A DNA stretch of 64,000 bases from an uncultured Mycobacteriaceae bacterium. GTDB lineage: Bacteria; Actinomycetota; Actinomycetes; Mycobacteriales; Mycobacteriaceae. The notes under the pieces are model-generated. The model saw nothing but the letters and a program-made list of their open reading frames with translations. It was not told where the DNA came from and made no database searches. A program made the translations under genes and the position numbers. Below, piece by piece: positions 14,382 to 19,205 of this stretch (position 1 is its first letter; every line of letters begins with the position of its first letter). The stretch spans positions 1 to 64,000 of the forward strand of contig CADEGF010000002.1 in NCBI GenBank assembly GCA_902826815.1. The letters run 5' to 3'.

Positions 14382-14536
14382 ATTCGGAGACTAGCCGCTG
14401 CGCCCTCCTTCGGCGTCTCAGGCGCAAGCGGGGCCGAGCTCGCGGGAGCGTTTCGATTCGCCGATCTCGGGCAATTCTCCTGCGCACGTAGCTGCGTCAG
14501 CCCTGTTGCGGCTACGGCGAGAGAAAGGATCGCAGC

Positions 14537-14737
14537 ATGGCGCTCGACGATAACGACATCACCACATCCGGCGGAGGAGAGGGCACCGCAGACGGCGGCG
14601 CGGGTGAAGGCCCCGCTGACGGCGGCTCGAACCCAGAAGGCCACGACGGCGGAGCAGACGGCAGCGCGGGTGAAGGCCCGGCCGACGGCGGCTCCAATCC
14701 AGAAGGCCACGACGGCGGAGCAGACGGCAGCGCCTGA
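14537..14737 (+). CDS. Repetitive Asp/Gly-rich small peptide, candidate modified-peptide precursor (BatC-like)
   Basis: A 66-residue peptide: a short leader-like MALDDNDITTSGGG, then two nearly perfect copies (22-43 and 44-65) of a 22-residue unit rich in Gly, Asp, Ala, Glu with one His each (AGEGPADGGSNPEGHDGG...). No hydrophobic segment and no Cys. AAAGGA 10 bases upstream supports ATG 14537. The stop is 10 bp before the Cupin_4/JmjC oxygenase gene, which is in turn fused by ATGA overlap to the sucrase/ferredoxin-like gene. I recall mycobacterial proteins of similar N-terminus and repeats annotated only as BatC. Role as substrate of the neighbouring oxygenase is inference. Confidence 0.8.
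   Translation: MALDDNDITTSGGGEGTADGGAGEGPADGGSNPEGHDGGADGSAGEGPADGGSNPEGHDGGADGSA
14600..14731 (+). repeat. Two tandem 66-bp in-frame repeats
   Basis: Direct repeats 14600-14665 and 14666-14731, differing at only a few mostly third-codon bases while encoding an identical 22-residue unit. Synonymous differences with unchanged protein argue for selection on the peptide rather than a very recent duplication. Confidence 0.9.
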
Positions 14738-14747
14738 CGGCGCCTCG

Positions 14748-15956
14748 ATGCTGAGCCGCTGCATCTCTATCGATCCGCAGACATTCGCGACCGAGTACTG
14801 GGGTCGTGAGCCGCTGCTCAGCCCGTCAGAAGCGCTCCCCCGCGACTTCGGCGATCTGCTGTCGACTTCCTCGGTCGATGAGTTGATCGCCGAGCGCGGG
14901 GTGCGCGCTCCGTTCATCCGGCTCGCCAAAGAGGGCGATGTTCTGGTCAAGGACTGCTACCTGGGCCCTGCAGGCTTCGGCGCCGAAATGCCGGACCAGG
15001 TCGACTCCGCCAAGGTGCTGGCGCAGTTCACCGGCGGGGCCACCATCGTGCTGCAGGGTCTGCACCGGCTGTGGCCGCCGCTGATCGACTTCGTCCGCGA
15101 GGCCGTCGACGAACTCGGTCATCCCGTGCAGGCCAACGCATACATCACGCCACCGGCCAACCGCGGCTTCGATCCGCACTACGACGTCCACGACGTCTTC
15201 GTCCTGCAGGCGGCGGGACAGAAGCGGTGGATCGTTCACGAACCTGTGCATGACCATCCGCTGCCGTCGCAGCCGTGGACCCAGCACCGCGAGGCGATCG
15301 CAGCGCGCGTCGCCGACGACCCGGTGATCGACGCCGTGCTCTCGCGGGGCGACGCGCTGTACCTGCCGCGAGGGTGGATCCATTCGGCGAAGGCCATGGA
15401 GACCACGTCGGTCCACCTCACCATCGGGGTGTCCCCGCTGACCGGAATCGACGTCGCGCGAACGGTGATCGATGAACTGGCGAGGATCGACGCGTTCAGG
15501 AAGTCACTTCCGATGGGCGCCGACCCTGCCGATCGAGATGAGATCATCGCCTCGGTGACCAAAGTGATGGCGGAAGTGGTCGACGCACTGCGCGACGAGG
15601 CGTCGATGCTGAGCGACGGCGCGGCCACCAGGCTGATACAGCGGCATGCCGACCGGACCCGACCCGTGGCGGTCCGTCCCCTTGCGTCCCTGCGGGCCGG
15701 TGAAAACGCCTCCGCCGCAAGGGTTCACTGGCGGCACGGGCTAGTCGCCACGATCGAGCATACGAACGGGCGCGTGGTGCTGCGGCTGCCCGACAAGGTG
15801 ATGACACTGCCCATGTCGTGCACCGAGGCAGTCACGGCGCTGCGTACCGGACAGGTCGCCGACGCGAGCACCCTGCCCGACCTCGACCACGCCGACGCGA
15901 CGGTGCTGATCCGCAGGCTGCTGCGGGAGGCGGTTCTGGTACCGGTCGACGAATGA
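14748..15956 (+). CDS. JmjC/Cupin_4 family 2-oxoglutarate oxygenase (ROX-like)
   Basis: A 402-residue protein of the ribosomal-oxygenase-type Cupin_4/JmjC family (YcfD, NO66, MINA53), Fe(II)/2-oxoglutarate enzymes that hydroxylate Arg or His side chains of proteins. Visible: N-terminal FATEYWGREPLL, NAYITPPANRGFDPHYDVHDVFVLQ with the HxD iron site near 145, GQKRWIVHEP, GDALYLPRGWIHSA with the second His near 208, and a C-terminal dimerisation/winged-helix-like region. ATG 14748 matches the family start although the frame is open much further upstream. It follows the small repeat peptide by 10 bp and overlaps the next gene by ATGA, so all three are likely translated together. Confidence 0.88.
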   Translation: MLSRCISIDPQTFATEYWGREPLLSPSEALPRDFGDLLSTSSVDELIAERGVRAPFIRLAKEGDVLVKDCYLGPAGFGAEMPDQVDSAKVLAQFTGGATIVLQGLHRLWPPLIDFVREAVDELGHPVQANAYITPPANRGFDPHYDVHDVFVLQAAGQKRWIVHEPVHDHPLPSQPWTQHREAIAARVADDPVIDAVLSRGDALYLPRGWIHSAKAMETTSVHLTIGVSPLTGIDVARTVIDELARIDAFRKSLPMGADPADRDEIIASVTKVMAEVVDALRDEASMLSDGAATRLIQRHADRTRPVAVRPLASLRAGENASAARVHWRHGLVATIEHTNGRVVLRLPDKVMTLPMSCTEAVTALRTGQVADASTLPDLDHADATVLIRRLLREAVLVPVDE

Positions 15957-16864
15957 CGGCTGCGAGACGGGCGCCGTGCAGTGACCAGTCGCTGGCCCGG
16001 GACGATCCGTTATACGGAACGGCCTCTGCCGGGTTCTCCTGGGTGCTGCTCGAATTGCCCGGCGCCTGGGGGCATTCGGCGTTTGTGCAGTCGCCGAACA
16101 TCATCGACCCCGATCTCGGGTGGGCGATCGTTCGTCGTTTCGAGACGGCGAAGATGCGTATCGCGGCGATCCGCCGTCCCGGCCGGCGAGCGGCCGAACC
16201 GCATTGGCGGTGGTTCGTCGCGCATTCGCGTGAGGGCAGTGAAGCGCTTTACCGCGGGGCCGTCAGCGGCCCGCGCGACTATCTGGACATCGCGCTCGAC
16301 GGCAGTGACGGCACCCTGTCGACCGACCCCGTCGTGGCGGTCTGTGCGCACGGCAAGCATGACCAGTGCTGCGCCGTCCGGGGTCGGAGCGCGTGTCAGG
16401 CGATCGCTGCGCAGTATCCTGAATTCACCTGGGAGTGTTCTCATTTGGGTGGCGACCGGTTCGCCGCCACCATGCTCGTGCTGCCAGAAGGGCTCTGCTA
16501 CGGGCGGGTCGATGCGGCGGAATCGGCGAATCTGGTTCGGCTTTACCTCGAAGGCCGTCTCGACAACACATTCCTGCGCGGCCGGACATCACTCCCACAT
16601 GCGGTGCAGGCCGCCCAGTACTTCGCCCGCGAGGCGTACGGCGACGACCGCATCGCGAGCCTGTCGCCACTGTCGGTCGACAAGGGCGACCACAGAATCC
16701 ACGTACGGCTGCGCGGGAACACCGGTCCGATCGAGATCGTTCTGACCGAGGAGTTGTCCGGGCCGCTTCTGTCGCAAAGGCATTGGGATGTGGAAGGTAG
16801 CTTCCGGGTTTTCGTGCTGGGGTCGATTAAAGCCTCGTTACCCGGGAACATGAATTGGAAGTGA
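15953..16864 (+). CDS. Sucrase/ferredoxin-like Fe-S protein
   Basis: A 303-residue member of the sucrase/ferredoxin-like family (PF06999), a thioredoxin-fold [2Fe-2S] ferredoxin. The cluster ligands are visible as CAHGKHDQCCAVRGR (near 122-136) and the ECSHLGGDRFAATMLVLPEG block near 160. The N-terminus (CSDQSLARDDPLYGTA) is typical. ATG 15953 overlaps the oxygenase stop (ATGA). In this cluster it could supply electrons to, or assemble, the iron centre of the neighbouring oxygenase (inference); the biochemical function of the family is poorly known. Confidence 0.87.
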   Translation: MTAARRAPCSDQSLARDDPLYGTASAGFSWVLLELPGAWGHSAFVQSPNIIDPDLGWAIVRRFETAKMRIAAIRRPGRRAAEPHWRWFVAHSREGSEALYRGAVSGPRDYLDIALDGSDGTLSTDPVVAVCAHGKHDQCCAVRGRSACQAIAAQYPEFTWECSHLGGDRFAATMLVLPEGLCYGRVDAAESANLVRLYLEGRLDNTFLRGRTSLPHAVQAAQYFAREAYGDDRIASLSPLSVDKGDHRIHVRLRGNTGPIEIVLTEELSGPLLSQRHWDVEGSFRVFVLGSIKASLPGNMNWK

Positions 16865-16976: not shown

Positions 16977-19205
16977 GTGACCACTCGAGAGTACGAAGAC
17001 GAACTGCAGTCCGAGCAGCAGCACGTGACCGAGCTCTATGCGCGACTCGACGCCGAACGCGCTCGGGTCAAAAACAGCTACACCGCCGCACTGCGGAGCC
17101 CGATCGACGTCAAGGACGGCGGCACACTCGTGCAACGCGATTCCGAAGTACGCGCGTTGGCCAAGGAGACGCGGCGGCTCGACGTCGCCGACAACGGACT
17201 GTGCTTCGGACGGCTGGACGCCCTGTCGGGCGAACGGTCCTATATCGGACGCATCGGGATTTTCGACAAGGACGACGATTACGAACCACTTCTGACCGAC
17301 TGGCGCGCGCCCGCGGCCCGCCCCTTCTACACGGCGACCGGTGCGAATCCGGAGAACATGCGTCGCAGGCGCCAGTTCCACACCCGCGGTCGGCGAGTGG
17401 TCGACTTCACCGATGAGGTCCTCGGCCGGCCCGACGGCAGCGAGCGAGGCGGCGGTGGCGACGCCGCCCTGCTCGCCGCGGTCAACGCTCCGCGCGGCGA
17501 CGGTATGCGCGACATCGTCGCCACCATCCAGGCCGAACAGGACGAGATAATCCGGCTCGACCACCCCGGCGTGCTGGTCATCGAGGGCGGGCCTGGTACC
17601 GGCAAGACCGTGGTTGCGCTGCACCGCGTCGCGTACCTGCTCTACACGCAGCGCAGGCGGATCGAGAACCACGGCGTGCTCGTCGTCGGACCGAACTCGG
17701 CGTTCCTGAACCACATCGGACGCGTCCTGCCGTCGCTCGGTGAGACGGATGTCGTGTTCATGACCACAGGGGACCTCGTACCGGGCCTGCGCGTCACCGT
17801 CGACGACAGCCCGGAAGCCGCCCGGTTCAAAGGCTCGCTGCAGGCGTTGGACGTGCTCGCCGCGGCGATCGCCGATCGGCAGCGACTGCCGCAACATCCG
17901 ATACCGATCGAACTGACCGACGTCACCGTGCAAATCGACGCCGAGACAGCGCAATGGGCAAGGGACGAGGCGCGCGGAAGCGGGCTGCCGCACAACGAGG
18001 CGCGCGCGAAGTTCGTCGAGATCGTCACGTACGTGCTGTCCGAACGGGCAATCGCGCGGATCGGGCGCGGCTGGCTCACCCGGGAGGACCGGCAGGCGTG
18101 GGAGGACCTGCGCAGCGACCTGGTTGGCGAGCTCGCCGAGAGCACGGCGTTCACCGCTGCCATCGATGAACTGTGGCCGACGCTGACGCCCGAATCGCTG
18201 CTGGCGTCGCTTTACTCGTCCGCCGAGCGCCTGCGGGCCGCGGGCGCCGACGCCGCGCTTCTGCGCGCCGAAGGCGACGCATGGACGGTGTCTGACGTAC
18301 CCCTGCTCGACGAGCTGGTCGACCTTCTCGGGCCGGACAAGCCGGTGGATGACACCGCCGAACGGGAACGGCAGGCGGAGGCGCAGTATGCGGCGGGCGT
18401 ACTCGACATGATGGTCAGCCGCGAGGACCTGATGTCCGACGAGGACCACCTGCTTGCCACCGACCTGCTCTACGCCGAGGATCTTGCCGAGCGATTCGTC
18501 GAACACGACACAAGGGAGCTCGCTGAACGCGCCGCCGCGGACCGCGACTGGACGTATCGGCACATCGTGGTCGACGAGGCGCAGGAACTGTCCGAGATGG
18601 ATTGGCGGGTGCTGATGCGGCGCTGCCCGAGCCGTTCGTTCACGGTGGTCGGCGACCTCGCCCAGCGGCGCTCGGTCTCCGGAGCGACGGCGTGGGACTC
18701 CATGCTCGAGGGGTACGTGCCTGGTCGCTGGGTCTACCGGTCGCTGACCGTGAACTACCGCACCCCTGCCGAGATCATGTCGGTAGCCGCCGCGCTGCTG
18801 GCCGAGTTCGCGCCGGGCGTCTCGCCGCCGGATTCGGTCCGCGCAACGGGTGTGCAGCCATGGTCGCGACGGGTATCTGAGGCTGAATTGTCTTCGGCTA
18901 TCGATGATTTCGTCCGCGAGGAATCGAGCCGCGAAGGCACAAGCGTGGTGATCGGTCCGCCCGGAGTGCCGGGGGCTGTGGCGCCGTCGGAGACGAAGGG
19001 GCTCGAGTTCGACGCGGTCCTAGTGGTGGAGCCGGATGCCATCCTGGCAGCCGGTCCGCGCGGCGCCGCCGAACTGTACGTCGCTCTCACCCGGGCGACG
19101 CAGCGATTGGGCGTGCTGCATCGTGGCCCGCTGCCGCAGGCGTTGGGCGGGCTGAACGAGATCGAGCAGGAAGGTCAGACGTCGCGGATATCGGCCACGA
19201 GTTGA
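16977..19205 (+). CDS. helR: HelR/HelD-type helicase-like RNA polymerase recycling and rifamycin-resistance factor
   Basis: A UvrD/PcrA-like SF1 ATPase of the HelD class, which pushes into the RNA polymerase channels and releases it from DNA; HelR members also displace rifamycins. Visible: N-terminal coiled-coil arm (YEDELQSEQQHVTELYARLDAER), LTDWRAPAARPFY, Walker A EGGPGTGKT (about 203-211), Walker B VDEAQELSEMDW, VVGDLAQRRS and C-terminal ALTRATQRLGVL. GTG 16977 (742 aa) fits the family start; the frame also permits GTG 16923 or ATG 16926. GGAGG at 16969-16973 is unusually close (3 nt). The RAE directly upstream indicates rifamycin induction. The 3' end overlaps the convergent PPOX remnant by 31 bp. 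Confidence 0.9.
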   Translation: MTTREYEDELQSEQQHVTELYARLDAERARVKNSYTAALRSPIDVKDGGTLVQRDSEVRALAKETRRLDVADNGLCFGRLDALSGERSYIGRIGIFDKDDDYEPLLTDWRAPAARPFYTATGANPENMRRRRQFHTRGRRVVDFTDEVLGRPDGSERGGGGDAALLAAVNAPRGDGMRDIVATIQAEQDEIIRLDHPGVLVIEGGPGTGKTVVALHRVAYLLYTQRRRIENHGVLVVGPNSAFLNHIGRVLPSLGETDVVFMTTGDLVPGLRVTVDDSPEAARFKGSLQALDVLAAAIADRQRLPQHPIPIELTDVTVQIDAETAQWARDEARGSGLPHNEARAKFVEIVTYVLSERAIARIGRGWLTREDRQAWEDLRSDLVGELAESTAFTAAIDELWPTLTPESLLASLYSSAERLRAAGADAALLRAEGDAWTVSDVPLLDELVDLLGPDKPVDDTAERERQAEAQYAAGVLDMMVSREDLMSDEDHLLATDLLYAEDLAERFVEHDTRELAERAAADRDWTYRHIVVDEAQELSEMDWRVLMRRCPSRSFTVVGDLAQRRSVSGATAWDSMLEGYVPGRWVYRSLTVNYRTPAEIMSVAAALLAEFAPGVSPPDSVRATGVQPWSRRVSEAELSSAIDDFVREESSREGTSVVIGPPGVPGAVAPSETKGLEFDAVLVVEPDAILAAGPRGAAELYVALTRATQRLGVLHRGPLPQALGGLNEIEQEGQTSRISATS

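Follow-up and report, generated by a model that had tools for sequence, protein, structure and literature searches.

A conserved three-gene actinobacterial unit of an Asp-rich repeat peptide, a JmjC oxygenase and a Suc_Fer-like protein resembles a minimal pathway for a modified peptide

Can three genes make up a pathway for a ribosomally synthesized and post-translationally modified peptide (RiPP)? This question is raised by a locus in the window, a stretch of 64,000 nucleotides from an uncultured Mycobacteriaceae bacterium (contig C2 of a 6.87-Mb genome), whose nearest named relatives among the matches listed in a genome scan are Mycolicibacterium and Mycobacterium. On the plus strand, the gene of a 66-aa precursor-like peptide (14537..14737) is followed by that of a 402-aa JmjC (PF08007, ROX/NO66-like) Fe(II)/2-oxoglutarate oxygenase (14748..15956) and that of a 303-aa Suc_Fer-like (PF06999) protein (15953..16864), the latter two assigned by Pfam and alignment (JmjC_2, 96.2 bits; Suc_Fer-like, 60.7 bits with a cut-off of 34.9). 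The oxygenase ATG at 14748 lies 10 nt past the peptide stop, and the Suc_Fer start overlaps the oxygenase end by ATGA; the coordinates, spacing and overlap that a first-pass annotation of this DNA had given for the trio were all correct. The unit looks like an uncatalogued family of modified peptides. With somewhat better than even confidence, we read it as a minimal RiPP-type pathway in which the oxygenase would hydroxylate Asp along the repeats of the peptide, the Suc_Fer-like protein would assist, and the product would be an internal peptide of metal-binding type.

The peptide starts with the acidic leader MALDDNDITT, contains no Cys and has a repeated core, in which a truncated unit (GEGTADGGA) stands ahead of two full 22-aa units, GEGPADGGSNPEGHDGGADGSA at 14603..14668 (read from the translation) and its copy at 14669..14734, each with one His and three Asp. 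As had been claimed before, the two units are identical in protein and differ at synonymous positions; the differences affect five codons. Across its six frames, the window contains a single in-frame stretch in which 18 residues match at a fixed period of 8-59; three triplet-shuffled copies contain none. This comparison, together with the cross-genus conservation and synonymous drift described below, ruled out a chance repeat.

A scan of one genome per species across 84,980 species confirmed at least 567 relatives of the oxygenase, of which the best-scoring 80 loci were analysed. This choice biases the set to the near clade, and some flanks are shorter than 8 kb. The 80 loci include Mycobacteriaceae, Gordonia, Williamsia, Dietzia, Rhodococcus, Rhodococcoides, Aldersonia and Antrihabitans, and also Herbiconiux, Curtobacterium, Leifsonia, Agreia and Cellulomonas. 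The precursor or its pieces lie directly upstream of the oxygenase in all 80, 75 found by script and five by inspection, the script having missed those with a frameshift (L030, L076), N runs (L061, L095) or a contig end (L098). The pairing of peptide and oxygenase predicted from the window is therefore recurrent. A Suc_Fer gene follows on the same strand in 79 of the 80 loci; the lone exception is from Rhodococcus rhodnii (L092), with no Suc_Fer in the 1.3 kb downstream of the oxygenase. At this locus, the precursor end also overlaps the oxygenase start. Seed open reading frames (ORFs) with a minimum length of 90 aa were drawn from the window and six reference loci; apart from the trio and frames that overlap it, not one is shared by as many as 10 of the 80 loci, and thus the conserved unit comprises three genes.

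The precursor is conserved as a protein. Among 76 near-clade precursors (the 75 found by script and that of the window), 60 have three full units, 15 have two and one has four, and a leader of the MA[LI][DN]DDD[IM]TT type is kept across the near loci, so that both the conserved leader and the variable repeat number anticipated by the first-pass annotation were found. In these precursors, 214 units match ADGG[SA]Nxx-G-x-DGGADG, a search pattern that itself partly fixes the invariant positions; position 8 of this 16-residue stretch varies freely (E, G, D, N, Q, S). Within the 82-aa precursor group (19 loci), differences number 5581 at third codon positions vs 1347 at first and 1239 at second positions, while the 81-aa group in this comparison includes unaligned indels. 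In the complete genome of Mycolicibacterium litorale F4 (L050, the same as L006), which is one of the 75 loci found by script, the third precursor unit is frameshifted and its frame runs over the oxygenase start, which could be a real variant or an error.

The three genes also occur together at the level of genomes. Among 41 relative genomes, the oxygenase was found in 23, distant and partial matches counted, and small ORFs rich in Asp and Gly, with a similar acidic start, lie upstream of it; the precursor profile matched 15, every match being beside a JmjC gene, and the Suc_Fer profile matched 23. In 25 genomes of the genus, which are related to each other and are not 25 independent trials, the core JmjC, the precursor and Suc_Fer are all present in 12 and all absent from 13, with no partial case; two of the 13 have a distant JmjC only, and three (G003, G005, G008) are 70-84% complete. 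Outside the genus, the near-clade precursor profile found three precursors and others with different repeats were visible by eye, indicating that the profile is too narrow.

More distant relatives were searched by composition. The oxygenase was found in 96 of 296 genomes of a class-wide sample, and 89 loci were examined: 29 that this search had yielded, the window (L112) among them, and 60 of the more distant ones, with a few genomes represented twice. These were divided into a core set of 55 loci whose JmjC scores add up to 220 bits or more, a level that L183 and L194 reach solely through summed partial matches, and a distant set of 34 lower-scoring loci. Since the candidate precursors were chosen by an Asp filter, random flank sites were taken as the control. 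An upstream ORF with at least 9% Asp is present in 53 of the 55 core loci, 26 of the 34 distant loci and 54 of 248 random sites; at 14% Asp or more, the counts are 50/55, 19/34 and 12/248, respectively. The cores in the wider set consist of long GADGGADGG runs, DADGTDGDATDGD runs or TDGTDSSDSDGTD, and the precursors found share an acidic start followed by Asp mostly before a small residue or Pro. All 53 core-family precursors pass the Asp filter and ten of them, counted by eye, contain no His (L138, L141, L145, L153, L158, L160, L164, L166, L168, L199); a scripted count of 13 of 53 is approximate, as start codons were picked too late in several precursors, and the count by eye was relied on. 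Cores free of His and rich in Asp (GADGG, DADGTDG, SDGTDSS) occur in some relatives. Against NCBIfam, the L144 peptide gave weak matches to repetitive adhesins and nothing more. Suc_Fer is adjacent in 42 of the 55 core loci. Moreover, 127 plasmid records carry a related oxygenase, of which two were examined, and the enzyme of Streptomyces clavuligerus adjoins a 48-aa ORF rich in Asp-Pro.

The residues expected to bind iron and 2-oxoglutarate are intact in the oxygenase. All 20 aligned sequences have H144, D146 and H212, which we take from the NO66 alignment to bind iron, and K159, which we likewise take to bind 2-oxoglutarate; the four residues match the motif of NO66. The AlphaFold model (mean predicted local distance difference test (pLDDT) score, 86.6) is closest in Foldseek to NO66 (E 4.7e-26), then to MINA53 and YcfD-type enzymes. 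Its C-terminal part contains several strands and then two helices. ROX enzymes have a winged helix at their C-terminal part, and in the model this part could act as a leader-binding element.

The Suc_Fer-like protein differs from its family at one conspicuous position. In the window, its motif is C131-x7-C139 C140 and H164-x3-D168, that is, HxGGD replacing the usual HxGGH, whose two His are presumably the cluster ligands of the family prototypes. Across 122 operon rows, which count the window twice, little or no variation is seen at C9, C131, C139, C140, H164 and the GG that comes next. L153 has a gap in the column just past HxGG; of the other 121 rows, 120 carry Asp there and L129 carries Cys. 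A cruder pattern, which sometimes picked up another HxGG, yielded D in 116 of 122. Among 50 PF06999 loci compared, all 8 with a JmjC gene in the locus are of the HxGGD type, and the 42 unlinked ones comprise 33 HxGGH, 5 HxGGD and 4 with an unreadable motif (33 of 38 readable motifs are HxGGH; two of the unreadable ones, L201 and L219, gave HxGGH by the cruder pattern). Of the unlinked HxGGD cases, L256-L258 come from genomes whose JmjC-precursor loci (L123-L125) have no adjacent Suc_Fer, as if the partner had relocated yet stayed in the genome, and L260 comes from a genome with a JmjC; L275 is a counter-example from a genome outside the 96 JmjC-positive ones. The His-to-Asp change at the presumed cluster site appears to track largely with one pathway. 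The structural model has a pLDDT of 82.6 but drops below 50 over residues 166-171, and it retrieved no PDB chain at E 0.001. The earlier designation as a [2Fe-2S] sucrase/ferredoxin-like protein thus stands as far as PF06999 homology is concerned and has to be amended in that HxGGD replaces HxGGH, so that the protein is not a standard Apd1-type ferredoxin. The prototypes of the family have bis-His coordination (PMC8482512).

Upstream of the peptide, a ribosome-binding-site-like GAAAGGA (14523..14529, plus strand) was read directly from the sequence, and purine runs resembling it precede the precursors of many relatives (seen by eye, uncounted). Farther upstream, GTTT-N15-GGGCAA (14450..14474, plus strand) is a promoter-like element, presumably of the SigF type. 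Variants of this motif, GTTT-N12..18-(GGCAAC/GGGCAA/GGGTAA/GGTAAC/GGTGAAC), lie some 60 to 130 nt ahead of the precursor at 33 of 42 mycobacterial loci; in 200 mononucleotide shuffles of the 42 loci, the pattern, chosen after inspecting the sequences, occurred in a mean of 0.07 loci and a maximum of 1.

These data suggest a minimal scheme of RiPP type. A short acidic leader of the MALDDDDITT type would bring a multi-unit precursor rich in Asp, Gly and Ala to its dedicated JmjC oxygenase, which would hydroxylate Asp along the repeats, most likely at the beta carbon. The Suc_Fer-like protein, with one presumed His ligand changed to Asp, may work with the oxygenase or with the product as a redox partner or in iron supply or release; 2-oxoglutarate oxygenases can complete a catalytic cycle without electrons from an outside donor. 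The product would be an intracellular, conserved peptide of metal-binding type that serves in stress or stationary phase, probably, rather than a secreted antibiotic. The RiPP-like part of this scheme is well supported by the anatomy of the locus, namely a leader, a repeated core, a dedicated oxygenase and all-or-none presence. Beta-hydroxylation of Asp at several sites is favoured because Asp, and not His, is common to the precursors found in relatives. The nearly invariant core in the near clade, the lack of conserved exporters and the stress-type promoter together favour an internal role over an antibiotic one, and metal binding is a guess from counting three Asp per unit.

Several observations weigh against this Asp-centred scheme. 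The Asp-richness of the candidate precursors is partly built in by the filter, which 54 of 248 random sites pass at 9%. The script found no Asp-rich ORF at two of the 55 core loci (L142, L194), and the candidate at L183 is poor; 8 of the 34 distant loci have no candidate at 9% and several weaker distant candidates are doubtful, and for the relative in Streptomyces NBC_00503 (L111), the 0.7 kb ahead of the gene shows no ORF that is clearly Asp-rich. Suc_Fer is not adjacent in 13 of the 55 core loci. In a check for distant PF06999 copies, which left out the Suc_Fer-less core genomes G130, G118, G308 and G098, one genome with a Suc_Fer-less JmjC-precursor locus (G288) has only the HxGGH type elsewhere (L225), and three more (G038, G232, G154) have no PF06999 match genome-wide. 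No protease, exporter or regulator is conserved among the near-clade neighbours (80 loci, ORFs of at least 90 aa), which is unusual for a secreted RiPP. In addition, the closest solved structures, NO66 and MINA53, are of enzymes that hydroxylate His and not Asp, and His is retained in 210 of the 214 near-clade units and so matters there for something.

These last two facts are also what speaks for another target in the same peptide, the single His of each unit, modified as in NO66 and MINA53 (the best matches in sequence as well as in structure), with the Asp residues as ligands or spacers. The first-pass annotation had put forward His36 and His58 of the window peptide in this sense. Relatives of the same enzyme family with ten His-free precursors tell against it, as do the near-clade units in which Ala (3) or Gln (1) takes the place of His, and we regard a His target as rather unlikely and His36/His58 as no longer the likely sites. 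With a small but slightly greater chance, Asp hydroxylation could be the first step only, leading to a cross-link, backbone cleavage or conversion of Asp to aminomalonate, with Suc_Fer possibly catalysing a second redox step and the repeats multiplying the yield of a small product. A second, redox-type protein, encoded next to the oxygenase at 79 of the 80 near loci and 42 of the 55 wider ones, would suit such a course; no second oxygenase is conserved beside the JmjC gene in the near clade, which argues against it. Macrocyclisation by 2-oxoglutarate dioxygenases is reportedly known from RiPPs. A precedent for a further step is the Asp-oxidising pair SmaO and SmaX of a graspetide cluster, which proceeds to aminomalonate (PMC13097080).

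Alternatively, the peptide might be an unmodified acidic partner, metal-binding or regulatory, while the oxygenase modifies a ribosomal protein, as other ROX enzymes of bacteria do. The ROX fold is consistent with this, and an Asp/Gly-rich low-complexity sequence could bind metal unmodified. Nevertheless, the all-or-none presence of enzyme and peptide in the genus, the design of a leader plus repeats and the pairing of the oxygenase with divergent Asp-rich ORFs in distant relatives make this improbable. It is scarcely credible that the short ORF serves as an attenuator, a regulatory upstream ORF of the oxygenase, and encodes no functional peptide: the gap of 10 nt in the window would suit this, but the ORF is conserved at the protein level with synonymous drift, its repeat number changes, and in some relatives the oxygenase starts 35 to 90 nt away or farther. 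Within the favoured reading of multi-site Asp hydroxylation, a more specific and speculative version, which we think unlikely, is a poly(beta-hydroxyaspartate) peptide, in which the three beta-hydroxy-Asp of each unit would offer six ligands for one ferric ion; this stress-induced intracellular iron binder would be the product of an iron oxygenase, and the Asp-variant Fe-S protein would load or empty it. As a further point against the favoured scheme, no IdeR box was found within about 160 nt, the best match to the consensus having 6 mismatches in 19 positions in one of 76 loci. This lack weakens an iron-regulated siderophore or iron-starvation role.

Other features were observed around the trio and its relatives. 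A HelD RNA-polymerase recycling motor (NF041465, 1406 bits) is encoded at 16980-19205 of the window on the plus strand, adjoining the trio; as it is no conserved neighbour in the 80 loci, it is incidental, and HelD was rejected as a functional partner. In one distant family, 11 of 13 loci (L231, L232, L162, L163, L167, L169, L171, L172, L175, L176, L178) combine the JmjC gene with two neighbours, a gene of the prolyl-oligopeptidase type and a precursor of 35 to 38 residues whose leader resembles VEVEDLAEVTSRD and whose tail resembles SDGTDSSSDFI. In the one prolyl-oligopeptidase-type protein scanned, Pfam reported the propeller domain and not the catalytic domain. This branch is possibly a second JmjC RiPP family with its own protease. 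At L123, L124 and L125, the oxygenase is followed not by Suc_Fer but by a small ORF; the three ORFs (about 85-107 aa) resemble one another and end in ...LICDLTD..SRDILE.EGRPE.AWW. Two further distant JmjC homologues (L025 and L028, G031:C409) lie a few kb apart; the gene upstream of one of them (L028, 8-1315) is radical-SAM-like by eye, and close to the other an 88-aa ORF (L025, 901-1167) with a Cys/Ser-containing tail resembles another kind of RiPP precursor.

With at least 567 oxygenase relatives, the trio is a compact and widespread actinobacterial unit. Its precursor belongs to no family in Pfam or NCBIfam, the two libraries searched, and is therefore likely to escape annotation pipelines and RiPP miners. 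The near-clade core is nearly invariant across genera, which suggests a conserved function in the cell more than an arms race. In this unit, a JmjC enzyme may naturally oxidise Asp at several sites, and His has naturally given way to Asp where a thioredoxin-like ferredoxin is presumed to hold its cluster. If the poly(beta-hydroxyaspartate) version were true, the peptide would correspond, as a ribosomal product, to the hydroxyaspartate siderophores, and actinobacteria would have a new kind of metal buffer in their cytosol.

No description of the trio was found in the literature searched, by the letters of the peptide or by Suc_Fer with RiPP and cluster terms; most subscription journals lay outside this search, and an earlier description is possible. 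The biphenomycin-type systems with BipG and PbsQ are alike in that the gene of a JmjC/cupin-type oxygenase accompanies that of a RiPP precursor and its product hydroxylates a side chain, BipG being an Orn gamma-hydroxylase (PMC12707348; PMC12257519). However, their target is Orn in a short aromatic motif, and their partners, an MNIO, a B12 radical SAM enzyme, an Arg-to-Orn enzyme and a peptidase, are not conserved beside the oxygenase studied here. Bacterial JmjC (PF08007) relatives of some eukaryotic fusions also occur in RiPP-like contexts (PMC12710340). Asp beta-hydroxylation in a ribosomal precursor is the likeness to PesHI of the nitrilobacillins and to SmaO/SmaX of the graspetide cluster, whereas PesH is an MNIO with a partner protein, the other partner enzymes differ, and the accessible parts of the sources mention no repeated Asp core (PMC13060819, PMC13097080). 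A graspetide was ruled out for the trio, with no ATP-grasp gene or other neighbour conserved beyond it at the 80 near loci, and a lanthipeptide, a bufferin or another Cys-based RiPP was ruled out by the lack of Cys in the window peptide. The remaining named classes were likewise rejected for want of a fitting partner gene or of Cys. Bufferins are reportedly also small ribosomal peptides proposed to handle metal, but the present peptide has neither Cys nor another conserved enzyme neighbour. Bufferins are made by MNIOs on Cys-containing peptides.

The two enzymes of the unit each have better-known relatives. With the thioredoxin-like bis-His [2Fe-2S] ferredoxins Apd1 and Aim32 (PF06999), the third gene product shares the Suc_Fer family and the conserved C-x7-C and H-x-G-G, but the operon family has Asp and not His after HxGG. 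NO66, MINA53 and YcfD share the fold and the HxD...K...H residues with the oxygenase. Whereas those enzymes act on ribosomal proteins at His or Arg, the gene adjacent to the present oxygenase in all 80 near loci encodes an Asp-rich peptide, and this genomic context points to the peptide, and not a ribosomal protein, as its substrate.

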